Origin: Crocinitomicaceae bacterium
Lineage (GTDB): Bacteria > Bacteroidota > Bacteroidia > Flavobacteriales_D > Parvicellaceae
Assembly (NCBI GenBank): GCA_002723085.1
Contig: PBNK01000025.1
Span: 1-64,000, forward strand
Length of the DNA stretch: 64,000 nucleotides
Direction of reading: 5' to 3'
Below the pieces are notes generated by a model that saw only the letters and a program-made list of their open reading frames with translations, was not told the DNA's origin and made no database searches. A program made the translations under genes and the position numbers. Of this stretch, positions 33,301 through 39,167 are shown in pieces (position 1 is the stretch's first letter; the number at the start of each line of letters is the position of its first letter).

Positions 33301-33317
33301 TTTACAATGCATGCATA
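33301..33317. promoter_or_regulatory. Operator-like palindrome upstream of the acyl-CoA dehydrogenase
   Basis: TTTACAATGCATGCATA contains the perfect palindrome ATGCATGCAT (33307-33316). It matches the site at 35698-35714 at every position except the two central bases (TTTACAATGC-NN-GCATA). It lies 17 bases before the TAAATTTG -7 element of the dehydrogenase gene, covering the expected -33 region, where a bound repressor would block transcription. The MarR gene at 35133-35585 is the obvious candidate regulator. Confidence 0.6.
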
Positions 33318-33333
33318 TGATAAAAATTTTTAT

Positions 33334-33341
33334 TAAATTTG
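33334..33341 (+). promoter_or_regulatory. Putative -7 element, acyl-CoA dehydrogenase gene
   Basis: TAAATTTG is an exact TAnnTTTG match 25 bases before the ATG at 33367. It supports that ATG over the TTG at 33343, which would leave almost no leader. No clear TTTG is found at the -33 distance, where the palindrome lies. Confidence 0.45.
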
Positions 33342-33366
33342 ATTGAATTCAAAACATAAGAATACA

Positions 33367-35130
33367 ATGAACAAAAAAGGAGCTGATTTTCTAACTAAAA
33401 AAACTCTACCATCAGAGGTTTTCATCCCAGAAGACTGGAATGAAGAACAACTGATGTTAAAAGAAATGATTCATGATTTTCTTAAAAAAGAGATTCACAC
33501 CTTACCAGAAGAGCTCGATGCTTCTAAGGACTTAGATTATATTTCTGGACTTCTTGATAAAAGTGCTCAACTAGGCCTTTGCGGATTAGCCATTGAAGAG
33601 AAATATGGAGGAACAGATCTAGACTTTAATACAGGATTACTTTTCACTGAAGCTATGGCCCCGGGTTTTTCATTTGCCACTACAATTGGTGCTCATGTAT
33701 CTATAGGATCACTACCAATAGTGTATTACGGAAATGACGAACAAAAGAAAAAATACTTACCTAAAATTGCTACTGCTGAATACAAAGCTGCTTACGCCCT
33801 TACTGAACCTGGAGCAGGATCGGATGCAAATTCAGGAAAAACTAAAGCTACGTTTAGTAATGATAGAAAATATTATTTATTAAATGGACAAAAAATGTGG
33901 ATTACAAACGCTGGTTTTGCTCATATTTTTATTGTTTTTGCAAAAATTGAAGATGACAAAGATTTATCGGCATTTATTGTAGAAAAAACTTTTGGAGGAA
34001 TCACACTTGGAGATGAAGAAAAAAAGCTAGGAATAAAAGGTTCATCAACTAGACAGGTGTTTTTTAATGAATGTCCTGTCCCGTTAGAAAACTTATTGGG
34101 TAAAAGACAAGAAGGATTTAAAATTGCTTTAAACATTCTTAACTCTGGTAGAATAAAATTAGCTGCGGGATCAATTGGAGGAATAAAATTCGCATTAAAT
34201 AAAAGCATTACTTATAGCTCTGAAAGAATACAATTTGATAAAAGCATAAATAAATTTAGCGCTATTCAACACAAAATTGGAGAAATGGTCAGACTTATTT
34301 TTGCGTCTGAATCTGCTATTTATAGAACTGGAAAGAATATTGATGATAAAGAAAAAGAATTAGAGAATCAAAACCTGCCAAAAAATGAAACCAAACTTAA
34401 AGCATTAAGAGAGTTTGCCATTGAATGCGCTATATTAAAAGTGTACAGCACTGAAGCTTTATCCTATGGAGTGGATGAAACACTTCAAATTTACGGTGGA
34501 ATGGGTTACAGTACTGAAGCTGGTGTTGAAATGGGATATCGTGATGCAAGAATCACAAGAATATATGAAGGGACAAATGAAATTAACCGAATGTTATCTT
34601 TTGCCGAATTGATGAAAAGAGCTTTTAAAAGCAAAGAAATAAACCTACAAAAAGCAGGAAGATCAATTCCTAAAATAGTTTTTAAAAGATCATTGCCATT
34701 TCAAAAATTAACCACTTACAAAATTATTGAAAATTTTAAAATGCTTTTTTTAATACTTACCAGTTATACAGGAAAAGCATTTGGAATGAAGTTGGCTGAT
34801 GAACAAGAAATAGTTATGGACTTAGCAGATATAATGGGAGAAGCATATATAGCTGAGTCTGTATATCTTAGAATTGAAAAATTAAAAGAAAAAAATGTTT
34901 CTCAAAGTGAGATTGAATTAAAGGAAAGTGTACTGAATCTTCAACTTTATGTTGCTAATCAAAAAATTATTCAAAAGGCAAACATCATAATCGACAGCTT
35001 ACCTAACACAAAAAATAGATCATTAAGGTTTATAGTTAAAAGACTCACTCCTCAACTTGCTATAAACCCAACTGAAACAAGAAGAAACATAGCTAAACAT
35101 ATGATAGAAAATGGGGAATACACATGGTGA
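33367..35130 (+). CDS. Acyl-CoA dehydrogenase (long, VLCAD-like)
   Basis: FAD enzyme that makes trans-2-enoyl-CoA in the first step of beta-oxidation. Starting at ATG 33367 gives 587 residues; TTG at 33343 is less likely. The family signatures are YALTEPGAGSDANSGKT and QIYGGMGYSTEAGVEMGYRDARITRIYEGTNEI in part (FAD and substrate contacts). The catalytic Glu is expected in IYEGTNE. A C-terminal helical extension of about 170 residues after the core (from KRAFKSKEINLQKAG) matches very-long-chain dehydrogenases rather than the roughly 380-residue short types. The gene is followed by a convergent MarR gene two bases away and shares an operator-like palindrome with fadA. Confidence 0.93.
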   Translation: MNKKGADFLTKKTLPSEVFIPEDWNEEQLMLKEMIHDFLKKEIHTLPEELDASKDLDYISGLLDKSAQLGLCGLAIEEKYGGTDLDFNTGLLFTEAMAPGFSFATTIGAHVSIGSLPIVYYGNDEQKKKYLPKIATAEYKAAYALTEPGAGSDANSGKTKATFSNDRKYYLLNGQKMWITNAGFAHIFIVFAKIEDDKDLSAFIVEKTFGGITLGDEEKKLGIKGSSTRQVFFNECPVPLENLLGKRQEGFKIALNILNSGRIKLAAGSIGGIKFALNKSITYSSERIQFDKSINKFSAIQHKIGEMVRLIFASESAIYRTGKNIDDKEKELENQNLPKNETKLKALREFAIECAILKVYSTEALSYGVDETLQIYGGMGYSTEAGVEMGYRDARITRIYEGTNEINRMLSFAELMKRAFKSKEINLQKAGRSIPKIVFKRSLPFQKLTTYKIIENFKMLFLILTSYTGKAFGMKLADEQEIVMDLADIMGEAYIAESVYLRIEKLKEKNVSQSEIELKESVLNLQLYVANQKIIQKANIIIDSLPNTKNRSLRFIVKRLTPQLAINPTETRRNIAKHMIENGEYTW

Positions 35131-35132
35131 TA

Positions 35133-35585
35133 TTAACCACTTCTTCTTAACTCATCAACTACATCAGGAATAACATTTATAACTTTAAAAAAAGTTGACA
35201 AATCTTCATCAGATAATTTAGTTTTTATTGCATCTTCAAATGAAAAAAGACGTTTGGAGGCTATATCTCTTAAAGATAAACCATGATCGGTTAAACATAT
35301 AAACACTTTTCTTTTATCATTTTTATCTCTTCTTTTATATATGGCTCCTTTCTTTTCAAGCGATTTCAAAATTCTTGAAAGACTATTAGGCTCCATACTC
35401 ATTCTTGGTGCAATTTTAGTAACAGGTGTTCCATAAGTATCATTAATTGTTAACAAAACAAATGCCATAGACAAAGTTACTCCCCTACTGTTAGCTTGAT
35501 CGTTATATAATTTATATAACTCAAGCCAAGATGATCTTATTTTATTTACAACAACCTTCTCAGCTATTTTTTCATAATTATCCAT
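35133..35585 (-). CDS. MarR-family transcriptional regulator, probable fatty-acid catabolism repressor
   Basis: This 150-residue protein (ATG at 35585; TTG at 35594 adds three residues) has the MarR winged helix. The recognition helix region is TKIAPRMSMEPNSLSRILKS, followed by LEKKGAIYKRRDKNDKRKVF, the beta wing with the conserved basic residues. Helices at both ends form the dimer interface. It lies between an acyl-CoA dehydrogenase and the thiolase/FadB operon, divergent from the latter. Palindromes TTTACAATGC-NN-GCATA precede both targets, and a CAATGC half-site lies in its own upstream region. Control of beta-oxidation, perhaps relieved by an acyl-CoA, is inferred. Confidence 0.88.
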   Translation of the reverse strand: MDNYEKIAEKVVVNKIRSSWLELYKLYNDQANSRGVTLSMAFVLLTINDTYGTPVTKIAPRMSMEPNSLSRILKSLEKKGAIYKRRDKNDKRKVFICLTDHGLSLRDIASKRLFSFEDAIKTKLSDEDLSTFFKVINVIPDVVDELRRSG

Positions 35586-35609
35586 AAAGATCAAATATTA
35601 AAAATTTAA

Positions 35610-35625
35610 TTCACATTGCATTGAA
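35610..35625. promoter_or_regulatory. Possible weak autoregulatory half-site upstream of the MarR gene
   Basis: TTCACATTGCATTGAA contains GCATTG at 35618-35623, which is CAATGC on the gene's own strand, the same half-site as in the two full operators. The second half is not conserved. It lies 25 bases upstream of the MarR start, where autoregulation would act. Confidence 0.25.
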
Positions 35626-35697
35626 TAAATTAAAAAATTAACATATAAATATTTTTTTTCATCTAAAAATTGTTTTTAATTATATAATTTACTTTAC

Positions 35698-35714
35698 TTT
35701 ACAATGCGCGCATA
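35698..35714. promoter_or_regulatory. Operator-like palindrome upstream of the thiolase operon
   Basis: TTTACAATGCGCGCATA contains the perfect palindrome ATGCGCGCAT (35704-35713). Fifteen of 17 positions are identical to the site at 33301-33317; only the central two differ. It lies 41 bases before the thiolase ATG. No exact TAnnTTTG is visible; TATGATCA at 35731, at the same distance as the dehydrogenase -7 box, keeps only the TA. Confidence 0.6.
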
Positions 35715-35754: not shown

Positions 35755-37041
35755 ATGAAAGAAAAAATTGTCTTAATAGATGGATGTAGAACACCATTTC
35801 TAAAATCTGAAACTGATTTTTTAAACACAATGACCTATGAATTAGGTCAATTAGCTATTAAAGGTTTGTTAAATAAAACTGGAATTGACCCAAAAATTAT
35901 TGATAGTGTAGTTTTAGGATGTGTCATATCAACTTTAAAAACAAGTAACATTGCTAGAGAAGCAGCTCTTACTGCAGGAATTCCGCATACAACACCATGT
36001 CATACTGTTACACAAGCCTGTATTTCTGCCAATAGAGCAATAGTTTCTGCTATTAATGAAATTTATACTGGACATGCTGAAATCGTAATTGCTGGTGGTG
36101 CTGATAGTGCATCAGAAACACCTATTGGATATAAAAAAGCAATGAGAACAAAACTCATGAAAGCCAATAAAATTAAATCTTTTGGGGACACACTTAAATT
36201 CATAAGTAAACTAAGATTAAAAGATTTTTTACCAGAAACACCATCCATAACTGAATTTACCACAAACCGAACTATGGGTCAAGACTGTGACATAATGGTA
36301 GCAAAACATGGAGTAACAAGAACAGAACAAGATAAAATGGCTATTGTTTCTCATAATTTAGCAGCAAAGGCTTGGGAAGAAGGGCACCATGAAAAAGAAG
36401 TAGTTCCAGTTCAAATACCACCAAAATTTAAATTCATTAATAAAGACAATGGGATTAGGCCAGGTTCAAAAATTGAAAAACTAGCTAAACTAAGACCAGT
36501 ATTTGACAAAAAACATGGAACACTTAATGCCGCAAATTCTTCATTTTTAACTGATGGAAGCGCAGTAGTATTATTAATGACAGAAAGCAAAGCCAAAGAA
36601 TTGGGGCTTAAACCTAAAGCAGAGATTATTGATTATAGTTTTACAGGACAAAGACTTGAAGATGAACTTCTACTAGGTCCAGCTTTTGCAATGTCAAAAG
36701 TACTTGATAATGCTAATTTAAAACTAGAAGATATTGATGTTTTTGAAATTCATGAAGCTTTTGCTGGACAAGTTTTAGCAAATATTAAATGTCTAGACAG
36801 TGAAGATTTTTGTAAAGAAAGATTAAAAAAAGGTGAAAAAGTAGGAAAAATAGATATGTCAAAAGTAAATCAGTGGGGAGGCTCTTTATCTATAGGTCAC
36901 CCTTTTGGAGCAACAGGAGCCAGATTACTTAATACTGCAGCAAACAGATTACATAAAGAAGGTGGTAAATACGCCATATTATCAGCCTGTGCAGCAGGTG
37001 CACATGGACATGCAATGATTATAAAAAAATATGAAGAATAA
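35755..37041 (+). CDS. Acetyl-CoA acyltransferase (thiolase), FadI/FadA type
   Basis: Cleaves 3-ketoacyl-CoA to acetyl-CoA and a shortened acyl-CoA, the last step of beta-oxidation. The 428-residue thiolase has the acylated Cys89 in VTQACISANRAIVSAI, the His region in FEIHEAFAGQVLANI, and the C-terminal SIGHPFGATGARLLNTAA and LSACAAGAHGHAMI with the second catalytic Cys. Length exceeds FadA (387) and fits the FadI type. Its stop overlaps the start of the multienzyme gene by one base (TAATG), so the alpha and beta parts are coupled. An operator-like palindrome precedes it. Confidence 0.94.
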   Translation: MKEKIVLIDGCRTPFLKSETDFLNTMTYELGQLAIKGLLNKTGIDPKIIDSVVLGCVISTLKTSNIAREAALTAGIPHTTPCHTVTQACISANRAIVSAINEIYTGHAEIVIAGGADSASETPIGYKKAMRTKLMKANKIKSFGDTLKFISKLRLKDFLPETPSITEFTTNRTMGQDCDIMVAKHGVTRTEQDKMAIVSHNLAAKAWEEGHHEKEVVPVQIPPKFKFINKDNGIRPGSKIEKLAKLRPVFDKKHGTLNAANSSFLTDGSAVVLLMTESKAKELGLKPKAEIIDYSFTGQRLEDELLLGPAFAMSKVLDNANLKLEDIDVFEIHEAFAGQVLANIKCLDSEDFCKERLKKGEKVGKIDMSKVNQWGGSLSIGHPFGATGARLLNTAANRLHKEGGKYAILSACAAGAHGHAMIIKKYEE

Positions 37042-39167
37042 TGAATAACGATTTTTTTAGACTTGAAATCAAAAATGGAATAGCCACAATTTGGATTGAT
37101 TCCCAAAAAGACAAAATGAACATTGTTTCCCCTAGTTTAATGGGAGATTTTGACCAAATTTTTAATGAGGTTGCTTCAAATGAAGAAATAAAAGGAGCTA
37201 TTTTAATTAGTGCTAAAAAAGATTTTATTGCTGGTGCAGATATAAAATCATTCACAGGCGAAAAAGTAGGGGACTTCCAACCCACTAGCAGAGAAGGACA
37301 TAGTATGCTTAATCTAATTCAACAAAGCAAAAAACCAATAATATCAGCAATAAACGGCACCTGTTATGGACTGGGAACAGAAATTTCTTTAGCATGTCAT
37401 GGAAGAATCTGTTCAGATGATCCGCGAACAAAAATCGCATTGCCTGAAGTAAAGCTTGGTCTACTTCCTGGAGCTGGAGGTACTCAAAGACTTCCGAGAC
37501 TTGTAGGACTTCAAAAATCTCTTGACATAATGCTTACTGGGAAAAACATTTTTCCTTATCCAGCAAAAAAAATGGGGCTTGTAGATGAAGTCGTTAATAA
37601 AAGTAAACTTCACAAAGCAGCCGAAGCTATGATTGAAAAAATCATTACTAAAGGACCTTTGAAAAGAAAAGTAAAAAAATCTTTATTTAATAAGATTTTG
37701 GATCATACTTCAATAGGCAGGTCAGTGGTTTATTCTCAAGCAAGAAAAAAAGTACTTAAACAAACTAAAGGAAACTATCCAGCACCAATAGAAATTATAA
37801 ATTGTGTCGAAACCGGATTAAAAAAAGGATTGAAAGCGGGATACGAAAAAGAGGTTATACAATTTGAACAATTGATGATTTCTGATGTTTCAAAAGCATT
37901 AAGAAATATCTTTTTTACAATGACAGAAAAAAAGAAAAATCCATTCTCTATAAAACCAAGGAATACAGACAGATTTGCAGTTTTAGGAGCTGGATTTATG
38001 GGAGCTGGAATCGCAGAAGTTTCCATAAACAAAGGAATGGATGTTATACTTAAAGATTTAAATGAAGAGGTTGTTAGCAATGCTAAAAAAAACATATGGA
38101 AAACAATTTCAAAAAAAGTTAAGCGTAAACAAATTAAGGAGATTCAAGCAAAATCAATAATTCAAAAAGCAATAGGACAAACAAATTTTGATGGATTTAA
38201 TAACGTTAATATAGTTATTGAAGCTATAGTTGAAAACATGGACATTAAGAAAAATGTAATAAAGCAGCTTGAAGATGAATGTAAAGAGGATTTTATTTTT
38301 GCATCAAATACTTCTTCTTTGCCTTTAACTGAAATGTCAAAAGCTGCTAAAAATCCAAAAAATGTGGTAGGTATGCATTATTTTTCACCTGTTCCAAAAA
38401 TGCCACTTTTAGAAATTATTAAAACAGCTGAAACATCTGAAGAAACATTATCTACTTGTTATGACTTAGGAATCAAGCAAGGTAAAACATGTATCGTAGT
38501 CAATGATATGCCTGGATTTTATGTTAATAGAATTCTTTGTCCTTATTTAATTGAAGCTTTATTAATGATTGAAGAAGGTGTTTCAATTGAAGACATTGAC
38601 GGAGCAATTACCAAACTTGGAATGCCTATTGGGCCAATTACTTTGCTTGATGAAGTTGGAATTGATGTAGGTGCACATGTAATGAGTGGAAATATGGCGG
38701 AACTTCTTAAAGGTCGCAAAGATTTTAAAATAAACCATTCAATGCCCAAAATGTTTGAAGCAGGTCTACATGGAAGAAAATCAAAAAAAGGATTTTATAA
38801 TTATTCCGAGAAAAAAGGAAGACTTAAAAAAAGCTCCCCAAATACTGATGTATATCAATATTTTGGGAATCCAAAACTTACAAAGCGAAGTGAAGAAGAA
38901 ATTAATGAGAGAACTATGCTTATGTTGCTTAACGAAGCTGTTTGGTGTCTTGAAGATAATATAATTGAAAATGCAAAAGATGGAGATATAGGAGCTGTAC
39001 TTGGTGTTGGATTTTTACCTTGGTCAGGTGGTCCTTTTAGCTACATGAATTTATTAGGAATTGACCATATTGTTTCAAGAATGAGGCATTACGCATCTAT
39101 TCATGGTCCAAAATTTAACCCAAGACCAATGTTGATTGAAATGGCTAAAAATGGGACAACATTTTAA
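37041..39167 (+). CDS. Fatty-acid oxidation multienzyme, FadJ/FadB type (enoyl-CoA hydratase / 3-hydroxyacyl-CoA dehydrogenase)
   Basis: Two enzymes in one chain: hydration of enoyl-CoA, then NAD-dependent oxidation. In 708 residues, the N-terminal crotonase has GAILISAKKDFIAGADIKSF and NGTCYGLGTEISLACHGRI with GLLPGAGGTQRLPRLVGL. The Rossmann domain starts at FAVLGAGFMGAGIAEVSIN near residue 310. The 3HCDH motif GMHYFSPVPKMPLLEII and a C-terminal repeat (LLNEAVWCLEDNII, GFLPWSGGPFSYM) follow. Paired with the thiolase it forms the alpha2beta2 trifunctional-type complex. Confidence 0.95.
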   Translation: MNNDFFRLEIKNGIATIWIDSQKDKMNIVSPSLMGDFDQIFNEVASNEEIKGAILISAKKDFIAGADIKSFTGEKVGDFQPTSREGHSMLNLIQQSKKPIISAINGTCYGLGTEISLACHGRICSDDPRTKIALPEVKLGLLPGAGGTQRLPRLVGLQKSLDIMLTGKNIFPYPAKKMGLVDEVVNKSKLHKAAEAMIEKIITKGPLKRKVKKSLFNKILDHTSIGRSVVYSQARKKVLKQTKGNYPAPIEIINCVETGLKKGLKAGYEKEVIQFEQLMISDVSKALRNIFFTMTEKKKNPFSIKPRNTDRFAVLGAGFMGAGIAEVSINKGMDVILKDLNEEVVSNAKKNIWKTISKKVKRKQIKEIQAKSIIQKAIGQTNFDGFNNVNIVIEAIVENMDIKKNVIKQLEDECKEDFIFASNTSSLPLTEMSKAAKNPKNVVGMHYFSPVPKMPLLEIIKTAETSEETLSTCYDLGIKQGKTCIVVNDMPGFYVNRILCPYLIEALLMIEEGVSIEDIDGAITKLGMPIGPITLLDEVGIDVGAHVMSGNMAELLKGRKDFKINHSMPKMFEAGLHGRKSKKGFYNYSEKKGRLKKSSPNTDVYQYFGNPKLTKRSEEEINERTMLMLLNEAVWCLEDNIIENAKDGDIGAVLGVGFLPWSGGPFSYMNLLGIDHIVSRMRHYASIHGPKFNPRPMLIEMAKNGTTF

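Follow-up and report, generated by a model that had tools for sequence, protein, structure and literature searches.

Two 17-base palindromic sites flanking a MarR-type gene (marR1) in a beta-oxidation locus of a marine flavobacterium (Crocinitomicaceae bacterium) were identified as probable operators of the protein that this gene encodes. In the favored reading, to which we assign a probability of about 0.85 on sequence evidence, MarR1 would repress the adjacent fadE and fadIJ genes, be released by a ligand, regulate its own gene, and be kept apart from the circuit of a paralogous regulator, MarR2. The window, meaning the whole 64,000-nucleotide stretch of DNA analyzed, contains the following features of this locus:

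33301 to 33317, plus strand: predicted operator before fadE, TTTACAATGCATGCATA
33306 to 33317: core of this operator, AATGCATGCATA, with half-sites CAATGC and ATATGC
33334 to 33341, plus strand: candidate -7 box of the fadE promoter, TAAATTTG, about 22 bases from the operator centre
33367 to 35130, plus strand: fadE-type acyl-CoA dehydrogenase, 587 aa (Pfam PF00441/PF02771/PF02770; NCBIfam NF058590 above cut-off)
35133 to 35585, minus strand: MarR1, winged-helix regulator, 150 aa (PF01047, E=9e-14, above the gathering score)
35610 to 35625, minus strand: putative autoregulatory site before marR1, TTCAATGCAATGTGAA on the marR strand, with one consensus half, CAATGC
35698 to 35714, plus strand: predicted operator before fadI, TTTACAATGCGCGCATA
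35703 to 35714: core of this operator, AATGCGCGCATA, with half-sites CAATGC and CTATGC
35755 to 37041, plus strand: fadI-type 3-ketoacyl-CoA thiolase, 428 aa (Pfam, NCBIfam)
37041 to 39167, plus strand: fadJ-type enoyl-CoA hydratase / 3-hydroxyacyl-CoA dehydrogenase, 708 aa (Pfam, NCBIfam), its start overlapping the fadI stop

The preliminary description had placed a MarR gene between the two sites, and the Pfam assignment bears this out: MarR1 scores 51.5 bits for PF01047, where the cut-off is 24.6. The protein falls far under all NCBIfam equivalog cut-offs, including that of FabT (NF050133, 22.9 bits vs a cut-off of 200). The monomer model (pLDDT 89.8) shows a normal MarR chain with helices and a wing (E82-86/E94-98), and its recognition helix, residues 66-78, carries Asn67. 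The best PDB matches to the model are MarR proteins, among them HpaR, MepR-DNA, FabT-DNA and CouR. No relatives of MarR1 were found in viral contigs.

The two 17-base sites are identical at 15 of 17 positions, as had been described, with the mismatch confined to the two centre bases, and each contains a perfect palindrome. Neither TTTACAATGCATGCATA nor TTTACAATGCGCGCATA has a further exact copy in the window or in the 2.43 Mb host genome. Among matches with up to two mismatches elsewhere in the genome, eight lie inside genes and were rejected as operators, the exception being the marR2 site (L005). The match between the two copies is itself weak evidence, because AT-rich gaps often yield such similarity: 15/17 identity was reached in 34 of 300 first-order simulations of the two gaps. 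Two WATGCNNGCATW sites occurred per 64 kb window of like composition in 15/300 simulations, and counts of the 17-mer pattern with up to three mismatches showed no excess over chance. Since chance can produce a 15/17 match, the case must rest on comparative data.

Conservation of the sites provides this comparative evidence. In related genomes, orthologs of MarR1 (46-100% identity) are likewise encoded between fadE and fadI, giving 18 MarR1-linked loci with each contig counted once. The exact palindrome ATGC-NN-GCAT is present upstream of fadI in 15 of the 18, and upstream of fadE in all 12 for which the fadE upstream DNA is covered. The three loci lacking an exact fadI site retain a version with one mismatch (G033) or half-sites only (L052, L055). 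The operator persists across genera while the flanking intergenic DNA varies. By contrast, none of 20 promoters (15 fadI and 5 fadE) from FadI/FadE relatives without MarR1 carries the palindrome, a difference that is partly confounded by ancestry because the MarR1-less loci are phylogenetically more distant. The preliminary description had proposed a search of related genomes for the motif upstream of orthologous genes, and it is indeed kept at fadE and fadI, co-occurring with this MarR.

Genome-wide distribution is similarly specific. The host genome contains 10 WATGCNNGCATW sites, six of them within genes, and a reversed control pattern yields none. The four intergenic sites precede fadE, fadI, the marR2 operon and a membrane 4Fe-4S protein operon, so that all four lie at beta-oxidation-related promoters and the random scatter that would have spoken against a regulon is not seen. 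In six MarR1-bearing relatives, the promoters of fadE, fadI, marR2, etfB and the Fe-S operon account for 23 of 27 intergenic sites; once the host is added, 27 of 31 intergenic sites in the seven genomes are upstream of beta-oxidation or electron-transfer (ETF) genes. One of the remaining intergenic sites, TTATGCAAGCATAC (L212:980-991, in G021), lies 16 bases upstream of a pyruvate carboxylase gene, which suggests lineage-specific recruitment of an anaplerotic gene.

The preliminary description had predicted a local MarR regulon. The tie between the sites and MarR is supported, but the circuit exceeds the locus, extending to a paralogous regulator, to etfB and to the membrane Fe-S operon. MarR2, the second MarR protein of the host, is about 41% identical to MarR1, and the two fall into separate clades (support 100/97). 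Its gene heads an operon encoding a 3-hydroxyacyl-CoA dehydrogenase (hcd), a thiolase and an acyl-CoA dehydrogenase, preceded by the operator GTATGCATGCATAC. The two targets of this wider set in the host genome are:

G000:C3:25650 and L210:201-6033: predicted operator and marR2 operon, a second complete beta-oxidation operon
G000:C4:64140 (L209:2455-4595): site before the Fe-S operon, encoding the membrane 4Fe-4S protein and an Fe-S partner

The marR2 promoter carries a site in 16 of 16 near-relative loci, the host's own included, and in 27 of 30 loci sampled across the class, with a single mismatch in two of the remaining three. Some marR2 promoters (L030, L034, L035, L037, L216) contain two operators about 30-40 bases apart, an arrangement that suggests cooperative or graded repression. 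Sites resembling TTATGC-NN-GCATAA are also present at the etfB promoters of 20 of 30 relatives (L148, L125, L174 and 17 further); the host's own etfB (L189) has none. The Fe-S partner looks like a CCG-domain protein, and the operon as a whole appears to resemble ETF:(methyl)menaquinone oxidoreductases; its product is possibly an ETF-to-menaquinone electron carrier. Its site is kept in just 4 of 30 relatives, which makes this operon a lineage-specific target. Taken as a family, these regulators have predicted operators at several beta-oxidation promoters, as expected of regulators of fatty-acid degradation: fadE and fadI for MarR1, and the hcd operon, etfB and the Fe-S operon for its paralogue.

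Covariation between the regulators and their sites distinguishes the two target sets. Residue 67, in the recognition helix, is Asn in 12 of 12 MarR1 proteins and Arg in 20 of 21 MarR2 proteins. Half-sites at MarR1-linked (N67) promoters carry C or A at position -6 in 41 of 44 cases and MarR2-type targets carry G or T in 68 of 70, counts in which the half-sites are not independent of each other, so that the Fisher values serve as a rough guide. The same relationship appears within MarR2 itself. In a sample of 49 MarR2 genes and 56 sites, all 100 half-sites associated with Arg67 proteins have G or T at -6, and 9 of the 12 associated with Thr67 proteins have C or A, again non-independent half-sites; the tree requires at least two changes to Thr67. 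One Thr67 exception (L036) retains T at -6. Within a single family (f17), one Arg67 species has T/G at -6 and Thr67 species have C at most half-sites. The correlation is chemically sensible, since G and T offer Arg a keto oxygen that C and A do not, although this rationale for the pairing is our inference. All four half-sites of the window carry C or A at -6 and hence the MarR1 code. The covariation supports linking the window sites to MarR1 rather than to its paralogue.

These comparative data bear on two competitors of the favored reading. Chance similarity in AT-rich intergenic DNA could explain the repeat as far as the simulated frequencies of 15/17 matches and paired palindromes go; it was rejected, and we give it practically no credence, because the same promoters keep the site in many genera, the sites are specific genome-wide, and protein and DNA covary. 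A second possibility is that MarR2 binds the window sites, or that both regulators share them, so that the two beta-oxidation operons are integrated and MarR1 only fine-tunes the response. The operators of both paralogues share the core ATGCNNGCAT, and the right half of each window site resembles MarR2 targets in having T at -5, which makes cross-binding by MarR2 conceivable. The C/A bases at -6 in the window nevertheless stand against the invariant G/T of Arg67 half-sites, and loci lacking MarR1 have no fadE/fadI sites, in a comparison that scored the presence of MarR1 alone. Shared or MarR2-dominated control is consequently judged rather unlikely.

The position of the operators relative to the promoter bears on the mode of action. 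The flavobacterial -7 box has the consensus TAnnTTTG (PMC9723704). The preliminary description had assigned a promoter to the first site, and TAAATTTG is present downstream of it; at the fadI promoter of the window, no well-spaced TAnnTTTG is evident. Of 58 operators, 35 have a TAnnTTTG at a distance of 17-26 bases from their centre, compared with a mean of 7.3 and a maximum of 14 in shuffled sequences, and the preferred spacing places the centre 17-19 bases upstream of the box. From this spacing, the operator would cover the -33 region and the spacer. Because operators mostly cover the -33 region, the usual position for a repressor, MarR1 most likely acts by repression at fadE and fadIJ. An activating or mixed role was also considered, given that some MarR proteins activate and that activators can work from positions around -30 to -40; the clustering of operator centres at the usual repressor distance, together with the fadI site found directly ahead of the start codon in genus g9, makes such a role improbable. 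In that genus (L043, L045, L049), the fadI operator is located about 16 bases upstream of the start codon, so overlap with -33 is not universal. There, rather than covering the -33 region, the operator may lie across the transcription start or obstruct elongation.

A third site was analyzed upstream of marR1 itself. The CAATGC half-site previously noted at 35618-35623 is present and proves to be part of a longer 16-base block, TTCACATTGCATTGAA. The block TTCACATTGCATTG is conserved upstream of marR1 in four genera (g1, g4, g7 and g9). This conserved block is asymmetric, with a single consensus half; as CAATGCAATGTGAA, it is inverted in the intergenic DNA of L052. The block upstream of marR1, one half of which is weak, probably serves in autoregulation.

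Returning to the repressor reading, the following circuit is proposed. At both the fadE and the fadIJ promoter, a MarR1 dimer would bind the palindrome CAATGC-NN-GCATWG across the -33 region and spacer and repress transcription; in the marR1 promoter, a related site with a single good half would probably confer autoregulation. MarR1 would be freed by a ligand that forms in the presence of fatty acids, with an acyl-CoA as the likeliest candidate; CouR offers an analogy that makes such release plausible. MarR2, the more widespread Bacteroidia paralogue, would recognize KTATGC-NN-GCATAM and control the second beta-oxidation operon, as well as etfB in many relatives and sometimes a membrane Fe-S electron carrier. 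The exchange of Arg67 in MarR2 for Asn67 in MarR1, combined with the outer operator bases, would separate the circuits. By extension, we lean towards a class-wide fatty-acid-oxidation regulon in Bacteroidia, in which duplicated MarR repressors use a one-residue code (Arg67 vs Asn/Thr67 at -6) to maintain two insulated circuits per cell.

Flavobacteria form a major part of both marine and freshwater ecosystems. One of them, the fish pathogen F. psychrophilum, strongly induces its beta-oxidation genes on exposure to fish mucus and plasma, according to a transcriptome study whose main text nowhere mentions MarR (PMC9723704). A search of the open-licence literature, where absence is not proof, returned no description of the regulon or motif or of a fatty-acid-degradation regulator in Bacteroidota. 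MarR-controlled catabolic regulons are a known type; this instance is apparently undescribed, as we found no paper on it. The data supply operators that can be tested, a regulon and a code for telling the targets of the two paralogues apart, which should be useful for annotating many genomes.

The control of fatty-acid degradation is known in detail for Proteobacteria: FadR (GntR) and PsrA and FadP (TetR) govern regulons over beta-oxidation genes including fadIJ, in a review that describes them for this group alone (PMC5343134). The MarR1 circuit shares with them the control of beta-oxidation genes, but those regulators belong to other protein families with other operators, whereas MarR1 is of the MarR type and found in Bacteroidia. 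Within the MarR family, FabT of streptococci (PDB 6jbx) also regulates fatty-acid metabolism; it is a repressor of synthesis, while MarR1 is associated with degradation genes. CouR (PDB 5cyv, 6c2s) has the same fold and responds to p-coumaroyl-CoA, providing a precedent for a CoA-thioester-binding MarR protein, although it is only about 20% identical to MarR1 and serves an aromatic acid pathway. The closest comparison is with MarR2, uncharacterised and encoded upstream of Bacteroidia beta-oxidation operons, which has its operator core and pathway in common with MarR1 and differs in carrying R67 rather than N67 and in outer operator bases that are G/T then T rather than, mostly, C then A.
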